The notes under the pieces: model-generated
Databases searched by the model: none
Told to the model about the DNA's origin: nothing
What the model saw: the letters and a program-made list of their open reading frames with translations, nothing else
In this document: piece after piece, positions 27,723 to 29,548 of the stretch
Position numbering within the stretch: the stretch's first letter is position 1
How the letters are laid out: each line of letters begins with the position of its first letter
Source: Cytophagaceae bacterium
GTDB taxonomy: Bacteria; Bacteroidota; Bacteroidia; Cytophagales; Cytophagaceae
NCBI GenBank assembly: GCA_014376985.1
Contig: JACMQM010000107.1
Span: 1-47,358, forward strand
Reading direction: 5' to 3'
Length of the DNA: 47,358 nucleotides
Made by a program: the position numbers and the translations under genes

Positions 27723-28187
27723 GTGTATTCATTCATGAACACTGCCATTCGTAAAGCAACATTACAAGACCTAGAACCGCTTTCTCTATTATTTGACAGT
27801 TATCGAGTTTTTTATGAAAAAGATTCTGACCTCGCGGGTGCGAAAGTTTTTTTGAAGGATCGAATAAACAATAAGGAGTCAGATATTTTTGTCGCTATTG
27901 ATGCAACAGGCAACATGACAGGCTTCATCCAGTTGTATCCCATTTTCTCTTCCACACGCATGAAACGCTTTACCCTGTTGAATGATTTATTTGTTCATCC
28001 ATCATACCGTGGACAGGGCATTTCAAAAGCGCTGCTGTTTGAAGTGCAAAAATTTACTAAGGAAACAGGCAGTTGCGGATTGATGTTGGAAACAACAAAA
28101 ACAAATGTTATAGGCAATAGCTTATATCCTGCTGTTGGATTTGAATTGGATGCAGAACATAATTATTATACCTGGGATACAAAATAA
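27723..28187 (+). CDS. GNAT-family N-acetyltransferase
   Basis: IRKATLQDLEPLSLLFD, LNDLFVHPSYRGQGISKALLFEVQKF; start may be 27735. Confidence 0.9.
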   Translation: MYSFMNTAIRKATLQDLEPLSLLFDSYRVFYEKDSDLAGAKVFLKDRINNKESDIFVAIDATGNMTGFIQLYPIFSSTRMKRFTLLNDLFVHPSYRGQGISKALLFEVQKFTKETGSCGLMLETTKTNVIGNSLYPAVGFELDAEHNYYTWDTK

Positions 28188-28223
28188 TAATGGTTCTACT
28201 CTAAGATTTGGTTATTAGAGTTT

Positions 28224-28340
28224 GCGTTAGGGATTGAGCCATTGTCTGAGCTCTTTTTCTTTGATTTTCATCTTGGGTGAGAAGACAGGTTGGATTCAAA
28301 GAAAAAAGCGAGTGGCGAAAGCCCGGCCCGAAGGGAGCGC
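28224..28340 (+). ncRNA. putative structured RNA / palindromic repeat element, copy A
   Basis: Closing stem GCGTT (28224-28228)/AGCGC (28336-28340), internal hairpin TTTTTCTTTGA (28254-28264)/TCAAAGAAAAA (28296-28306); second copy on the opposite strand. Confidence 0.5.
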
Positions 28341-28480
28341 CATGGATTTATCAAATAGGATTTACTTGTATTAGATTTACTTGTGTTATATAACCTGATG
28401 TATATGATTATTAAACATAATAAGCTAATCATAAAACGGAATCATTTATCCTTTAAAAAATAGTTAAGGCGACTTTAAGG

Positions 28481-28587
28481 GCGTTCCCTTCGGGCCGGGC
28501 TTTCGCCACTCGCTTCCCGATTCTGCAGCACGTTCAATAAAAGCCTATATGTCGGGAGAGCTCAGACAATGGCTCAATCCCTAACGC
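28481..28587 (-). ncRNA. putative structured RNA / palindromic repeat element, copy B
   Basis: Minus strand GCGTT (28587-28583)/AACGC (28485-28481); hairpin TCCCGA/TCGGGA at the same relative position as the hairpin in copy A. Confidence 0.5.
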
Positions 28588-28705
28588 AAATCAACAAAAC
28601 TTTAACATCGTTAAGAGTAGGATCATATAGTAAAGTAGTAACGCAGCAAGTTTCGGGTTTTATTGCTATGCGAAATAATGTAAGTTTGATACAGTATGAT
28701 AAGGT

Positions 28706-29548
28706 ATGAGCAAGCAAGAGGAAATTAATTACAGCAGAATAGCGGAAGCGATCGAGTATATCCGTTTGCATTTTAAAGAACAGCCAAGCCTGGAGCATAT
28801 TGCCGAACAACTGCATCTTAGTCCTTTTCATTTTCAACGCTTGTTTACGGACTGGGCAGGAGTGAGTCCTAAGCAATTTTTACAATTCATTAGTGTAAAC
28901 TATGCCAAACAATTGCTGAAAGAAAAGCAGGCAACTTTGTTTGATGTAGCAGAAAAAACAGGACTATCAGGTACCGGAAGATTACATGATCTGTTTGTGA
29001 AGATAGAAGGCATGACTCCGGGTGAATACAAAAATGGAGGCGAACAACTTTCGATTTCATATAGCTTTGAAGAAAGTCCGTTTGGTAAATTGATTGTTGC
29101 TTCAACGATGAAAGGTATTTGCTACATTGCTTTTTTACAAGACAAAGAAAAATCTGTGCAGGAATTACAAGCATATTTTCCTAAAGCTGCTTTCCAATTC
29201 ATAGAACAACCACTTCACAAAAAAGCACTCCGTATTTTTGAACAAGATTGGAAGGGTATAGCGCAAATAAAATTGCATTTGAAAGGAACAGATTTTCAAT
29301 TGAAAGTATGGGAAGCATTATTGAAAATTCCATCGGGAAGCTTAACAACTTATGCAAGCATCGCCGAACAAATAGAAAGTCCTACTGCCTCAAGAGCTGT
29401 AGGCACAGCAATTGGCAGTAATCCTATTGCTTTTCTAATCCCTTGTCATCGTGTCATTCAATCGAGTGGTATCATTGGCGGATACATGTGGGGGCCAACC
29501 AGAAAGACTGCCATCATCGGCTGGGAAGCGGCACGCGTTAATTCATAA
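28706..29548 (+). CDS. Ada-like bifunctional protein: AraC-type HTH plus methylated-DNA--protein-cysteine methyltransferase
   Basis: HLSPFHFQRLFTDWAGVSPKQFLQFI; FQLKVWEALLKIPSGSLTTYASIAEQI...NPIAFLIPCHRVIQSSGIIGGYMWG. Confidence 0.93.
   Translation: MSKQEEINYSRIAEAIEYIRLHFKEQPSLEHIAEQLHLSPFHFQRLFTDWAGVSPKQFLQFISVNYAKQLLKEKQATLFDVAEKTGLSGTGRLHDLFVKIEGMTPGEYKNGGEQLSISYSFEESPFGKLIVASTMKGICYIAFLQDKEKSVQELQAYFPKAAFQFIEQPLHKKALRIFEQDWKGIAQIKLHLKGTDFQLKVWEALLKIPSGSLTTYASIAEQIESPTASRAVGTAIGSNPIAFLIPCHRVIQSSGIIGGYMWGPTRKTAIIGWEAARVNS

Follow-up and report, generated by a model that had tools for sequence, protein, structure and literature searches.

A probable MITE-like foldback unit with two opposed Flavo-1-type modules between the GNAT and ada-like genes of a Cytophagaceae bacterium

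The two opposed repeat copies lying between the GNAT and ada-like genes are most probably the arms of a single non-autonomous, MITE-like foldback unit that carries two opposed modules of Flavo-1 type. The unit, at positions 28191-28625 of the window (the whole stretch of DNA analysed, 47,358 nucleotides), is an insertion beside a gene in a soil bacterium. The observations behind this reading are the dispersal of related copies, empty sites in relatives, inverted ends, 6-bp duplications flanking sister units, and conserved base pairing within the module. The function of Flavo-1 has been a puzzle since 2010, and the Rfam model appears to capture only a shortened part of a wider superfamily of three-way junctions; members that travel in a defined mobile unit provide a testable alternative to "regulatory RNA" for this orphan class, and such travel would explain why Flavo-1 copies ignore gene orientation.

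The insertion unit and its ends

The features assigned to the unit are collected in Table 1. The outer arms (28221-28254 and 28557-28590) are complementary over 34 nt at 100%, and the inner arms (28306-28341 and 28480-28515) over 36 nt at 97%, with one difference; the preliminary description, which had reported two opposed copies with a perfect arm of 33 bp and a shared stretch of 35 nt with one difference, was thus accurate to within a nucleotide for each. The unrelated sequence that it placed between these stretches is formed by the variable middle stems, which differ between copies A and B, the rest being common to both, and the weaker similarity that it followed outside the arms (TCTACTCT / CCTACTCTT) represents the unit's terminal inverted repeat. 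As it had also stated, no open reading frame explains the repeats: the called gene on the left ends at 28187, that on the right starts at 28706, and the opposed repeats overlap neither. The DNA of the unit folds at -115 kcal/mol vs -43 +/- 4 kcal/mol for shuffled sequences (z -16); given this fold and the many further matches in the genome, the repeat lies well outside what chance would produce.

Table 1. Features of the probable foldback unit (positions within the window)
Feature	Positions	Strand	Evidence or detail
Left flank, expected place of a 6-bp target duplication	28185..28190	.	TAATAA; includes the GNAT stop codon
Whole insertion unit, 435 bp, probable MITE-like foldback	28191..28625	.	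Empty congener junctions; similar unit in G002
Left terminal inverted repeat (28191-28218) plus short linker	28191..28223	+	TGGTTCTACTCTAAGATTTGGTTATTAG-AGTTT; 1 mismatch to consensus pattern
Module A, three-way junction, variable stem TTTTTCTTTGA/TCAAAGAAAAA	28224..28341	+	R1 120.8 bits; minimum-energy fold; covariation
Module A stem P1	28224-28228/28336-28340
Module A stem P3	28327-28335
Spacer, A+T-rich (24% GC)	28342..28479	.	Unconserved between the A/B pairs compared in own genome
Module B, three-way junction, variable stem CCCGA/TCGGG, opposed to A	28480..28587	-	R1 99.8 bits
Right terminal inverted repeat plus linker, degenerate	28588..28625	-	Reverse complement TGATCCTACTCTTAACGATG...; alignment to left end

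The GNAT-ada junction was found without the unit in three congeners (G001, G002 and G003). Their match to the window runs up to about 28188-28191 and resumes from about 28637 or later, and the gap between the matched flanks is 7 nt in G002 and 8 nt in G003 vs about 450 nt in the window; G001 aligns likewise. A unit similar to that of the window (77% over about 410 nt, from window position 28189) is present in G002 at an unrelated place (C162), and a second unit with an A/B pair, L028, has its own empty site in G002 (L199; 463 vs about 20 nt). Three orthologous places (L021/L141, L032/L186 and L005/L138) hold different module types in two genomes, which points to turnover.

Units end in a 28-nt inverted repeat with the consensus TGGYTMTASTCTAAGATTTGRTTGTTAG (the end sequence is also given as TGGYTMTASTCTAAGATTTG). 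The end pattern occurred at 23 places in four congeneric genomes and at none with reversed-pattern controls, most of these places adjoin a module, and among 19 genomes of the family the pattern is restricted to this genus. Similarity between the left and right ends of the window unit is modest (matched in score by 39 of 2000 shuffles), and is strong in sister units; recognisable ends are missing at most solo modules, with a loose match in just 24 of 145 module flanks. Among the seven units with both ends recognisable, a target duplication matching at 6/6 positions was found in four, L150, L128, L333 and L336 (AAAAAA, which is low in complexity and weak taken alone, TTAAAA, CTATTT and TAAGAA), and one matching at 5/6 in a fifth, L286, where shuffled partners reach at least 5/6 about 1.1 times in 27. 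The duplication is not preserved around the window copy: TAATAA on its left and TATAGT on its right (28626-28631) agree at 2 of 6 positions. Preservation is best in L150:13182-13294 (113 bp, consisting nearly only of ends), L128:10663-10907, and L333 and L336, each with a single module.

The module, its copies and its relation to Flavo-1

The module is a predicted three-way junction. P1 is GCGTT/A(A/G)CGC, P2 is GGGATTGAGCC/GGCGAAAGCCC with a variable hairpin (in detail GGG-A-TT-GA-GCCA / TGGC-GA-AA-G-CCC, then TGTCTGAGC/GCGAG, then the hairpin), and P3 is CCC-GAA-GGG. The closing of each copy by GCGTT/ARCGC that had been noticed earlier is P1 (GCGTT/AACGC) of this conserved structured module. 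For copy A and for L042 this three-way junction is the fold of lowest energy; copy B taken alone prefers a partly different fold.

The preliminary description had offered an absence of other copies as grounds for giving up its reading, and copies proved to be many. A 131-nt query returned 65 BLAST matches in the own genome (40 at E<1e-19), and a covariance model, R1, built from 57 own-genome matches, matched 93 of the 94 candidates scored there, so that the number is at least 93 and the true number higher. There were 43-72 R1 matches in the three congeners, and a sample of 396 genomes of the phylum contained 34 with matches, most of these belonging to the same class but to other families, in agreement with the recurrence in other Bacteroidota that had been suggested. 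In the own genome, type A (about 40 copies) carries the TTTTTCTTTGA stem. Most of the type-B copies (about 18 in all) are paired with an A in the opposite direction, the two starts being 270-365 bp apart; type C (about 5 copies) stands back to back with an A. The type-C modules (GCGTTAGGGATCGAGTGGAAAGCCCGAAGC...) lie 6-27 nt from their type-A neighbours (L017, L030, L037, L038, L039), and this composite is kept in congeners (L064, L065, L074). Type-D modules, GCGTGAGGGATAGNAGCGGAAAGCCCACAGCGAG...CGAGCGAGGACTTGNAGCGGATAGCCCGACCCGNAGGGGCACGCCC, were seen in G002 in 26 copies within the approximately 1.6 Mb searched (loci include L132, L141, L147, L150, L152 and L186); some type-D modules have extra hairpins within their loops (L138, L187, L228, L156, L184, L229).

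Gene context was counted using gene calls from a simple hexamer-based finder. Within 640 kb of G002 contigs plus the window, 0 of 61 modules overlapped a gene, 19 of the modules between tandem genes had the same orientation as those genes and 16 the opposite, and convergent gaps were not preferred (2 of 57 non-edge elements and, for the own genome, 5 of 40 intergenic regions). Intergenic position without orientation bias fits leftovers of a mobile element, not a terminator or leader. At L129:5835-5845 of G002 the upstream gene takes its TAG stop codon from the GCGTTAG end of a module; in the own-genome counterpart, L009, there are 28 further nt at this place and the codon is TAA. Modules L110:15-111 (G094) and L098:1501-1608 (G139) lie near a 16S rRNA gene and near a tmRNA gene. 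Another intergenic repeat, TTTTGCTCTCCCAAAAGAAAAGTAACAAAAGAAAAGG...GCTCTTTTCCTGGACGCCAGCCGCACC, is common to L029 and L196, one in each of the two genomes.

Compensatory changes were found at 28 of 30 pairs in 39 matches taken across genera and families, a strong covariation that supports the structured module of the preliminary description. The covariation score was 0.343 (from an alignment fitted to the model, which favours the score) vs 0.105 for shuffled and 0.04-0.06 for slid partners, and 0 of 500 shuffles scored as high. The slid controls, together with the natural P1 series GCGTT/AACGC, GCGTG/CACGC and GCATT/AATGC, argue that the covariation is real despite the model-fitted alignment; the weak covariation of a single-genome MAFFT alignment is ascribed to paralogues that are too alike and to an inner stem one base out of register. 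In 36 of 39 matches the named strand gave a better fold than the complementary one, and at paired positions G.T was more frequent than A.C (27 vs 13, p 0.04; by another count 28 vs 17, p 0.14), which suggests, with modest support from folding and from G.T/A.C, that the module has one functional strand. At four orthologous sites with the same module, identity was 97% in the core, 84% in the variable part and 73% in the flanks; for all seven orthologous sites, three of which have a differing or poorly aligning element, the values were 86%, 70% and 68%. Either purifying selection or concerted evolution could be the cause of this core conservation.

No tRNA, tmRNA or known Rfam RNA was found at the window repeats at gathering thresholds, and a mir-393 match there is the inverted repeat itself. 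Copy A of the window aligns along the core of Flavo-1 (RF01705) at 14.1 bits (E 6.3), the gathering score being 42 bits. The core stem of Flavo-1, with its GAUUGA..GC / GC.GAAAGC internal loops and variable hairpin, is present in the modules. Nine R1 hits elsewhere coincide with Flavo-1 gathering hits in place and strand, three of them in the family of the window, and P1, with P3 in full or nearly so, surrounds 9 of 9 tested Flavo-1 loci outside the Rfam model; neither stem was obvious at the Flavo-1 examples L161/L162. A second model, R2, built from the enlarged set (modules plus Flavo-1 relatives), finds Flavo-1 loci outside its alignment (L166, L168 and L169, E ~2e-8 to 3e-8; L161-L163, E near 1e-4), and it also picks up type-D modules in G002. 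The shared loci and the R2 matches indicate one superfamily with at least two inner-loop classes. On sequence and predicted pairing the modules belong to this enlarged Flavo-1 superfamily, and the Rfam model misses the window copies; the relation to Flavo-1 suspected earlier thus stands through the nine shared loci, while the window copies themselves score below the Rfam threshold. Flavo-1 proper gave 12 matches at E<=0.001 in the own genome (best C325:1335-1419, 58.7 bits). The 2010 listing of Flavo-1 gave it as probably an RNA and not cis-regulatory (PMC2864571), and among the bacterial small-RNA families that have been catalogued it is listed with the most abundant (PMC9029176).

Rival readings and a possible mechanism

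Each copy might instead be an independent small RNA gene of the Flavo-1 kind, or a cis-regulatory RNA for the host, with pairs arising by local duplication. The strong compensatory pairing, the better folding and G.T excess of the named strand, and a module core better conserved than its flanks at orthologous sites all speak for this, but orientation bias to neighbouring genes is absent, orthologous sites are empty or differently filled, the units have inverted ends and target duplications, and Flavo-1 hits in F. psychrophilum lie sense or antisense to transcripts indistinctly, with many outside transcripts (PMC9723704); we consider it unlikely. The structured-RNA reading of the preliminary description is kept for the conserved fold and given up for the pair, which is read as a MITE-like insertion unit and not as two independent RNAs. 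A MITE with target duplications had been put forward as refuting the RNA reading; the signs of a MITE were found, with duplications in sister units, and the RNA-like fold holds too, at another level. A transcription terminator or insulator acting in both directions between genes would agree with long intergenic hairpins and with the start of copy A 36 nt past a stop codon, but sites of terminator type (a G+C-rich hairpin, then a T run) numbered 0 in the region and the modules are not enriched in convergent gaps, making this highly improbable.

Dispersed intergenic palindromic pairs with a polarity of fold would also be expected of a REP/REPIN-type element mobilised by a RAYT transposase (Y1, HUH), which works on single strands in folded form, and the own genome has 11 Y1_Tnp (PF01797) matches, most of them RAYT-like. 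Modules of types A and B nevertheless adjoin 0 of the 11 Y1 genes, the flanks of which differ, and to our knowledge Y1 transposases do not make terminal inverted repeats with 6-bp target duplications; this origin appears very unlikely. The likeness to an integron attC site of a cassette is superficial, consisting of a GCGTTAG end and a variable inner hairpin; the layout of attC is AAC...GTT, an order that is reversed in the modules, and single modules occur where there are no cassettes, so this reading has a negligible probability. A phage or plasmid element was rejected, no match being found in phage or plasmid records; 2.9 million viral contigs gave 0 type-A matches and 11 matches to the type-D pattern. 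Origins by REP/RAYT, as a terminator, or from phage or plasmid are disfavoured.

The Y1_Tnp matches of the own genome (G000) are on C169, C371, C181, C343, C30, C358, C138, C262, C333, C377 and C57; the proteins are mostly about 180-200 aa, and other palindromes stand beside at least one of them (L056). A separate REPIN-like repeat, AGTCCCCGCAGGGTCTC...GAGACCCTGCGGGGACT, was seen in G002 at approximately 15 loci in 1.4 Mb (L212:8445-8600, L136, L137, L152, L176, L187, L205 and L209 among them). At L212 it is flanked by both ends of a type-A module that has lost its interior; the module is intact there in the own genome (L040).

For the foldback unit, the arrangement would be that each end has a 28-nt inverted repeat with a Flavo-1-superfamily module just inside it, the 5' end of the module pointing outward. 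A cut-and-paste (DDE-type) transposase acting in trans would recognise the ends and duplicate an A+T-rich target. A parental autonomous IS with the same ends is usual for a MITE and not strictly required. No transposase was found beside the end matches, and Pfam DDE_Tnp_1 (PF01609) and Transposase_mut (PF00872) gave 0 hits in the four draft genomes, assemblies that could hide a parental transposase; IS1595 transposases, considered as parental, are present in the genomes searched and have no unit ends. More tentatively, the module may be a phylum-wide nucleic-acid fold of ancient origin, one strand of it being the functional one, and in this genus it would be carried along as a passenger of the unit. 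It may aid the element, through recruitment of a protein or by shielding the long hairpin, or alternatively it may act on transcripts reading through. It is conceivable, if rather doubtful, that the whole Flavo-1 superfamily is a phylum-wide mobile nucleic-acid module rather than a class of regulatory RNAs, that a protein recognises the single strand in its folded state (ssDNA or RNA) and so spreads or maintains it, and that it came to stand twice in opposition in the foldback transposon of this genus. Inverted pairing of modules, as in the foldback unit, was not seen at the nine loci elsewhere in Bacteroidota.

Comparison with known mobile repeats and with Flavo-1

Correia, NEMIS and ERIC elements resemble the unit in being mobile palindromes between genes whose transcripts can form hairpins; they are not known to us to contain a defined, conserved three-way junction with internal loops of Flavo-1 type. 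Bacterial MITEs, e.g. BrickBuilt of Porphyromonas gingivalis (PMC4596501) and MITECca01 of Cardinium (PMC9769881), are likewise short, non-coding, bounded by terminal inverted repeats and dispersed between genes, some with target duplications, and BrickBuilt also traps unrelated internal sequence (PMC4596501). The window unit differs from both in its ends and in its cargo, a covarying three-way-junction module present twice in opposition, and its parental IS was not found. REPINs moved by RAYTs (PMC3116915) share with it two opposed copies of a folded repeat, but REPs are 20-40 bp long (PMC3733652), whereas the modules are 80-130 nt and stand inside 28-nt inverted ends with 6-bp target duplications.

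Flavo-1 (RF01705; PMC2864571) has the same P2 core, GGGATTGAGC/GCGAAAGCCC, with A.G and tandem G.A mismatches, a variable A/T hairpin, and many intergenic copies in Bacteroidota. The window modules have TGTYTGAGCTC/GCGAGT where Flavo-1 has GGAAATCC/GATTG, and they show a closing stem, P1, and a hairpin, P3, that are outside the 76-position Rfam model. No published description of the foldback unit was found in the open-access literature, most subscription journals lying outside that search. The kinds to which the element is referred, the MITE and the Flavo-1 RNA family, are known; what is new is a probable foldback unit with two opposed Flavo-1-type modules, the extension of Flavo-1 by P1 and P3, and evidence that its members move.
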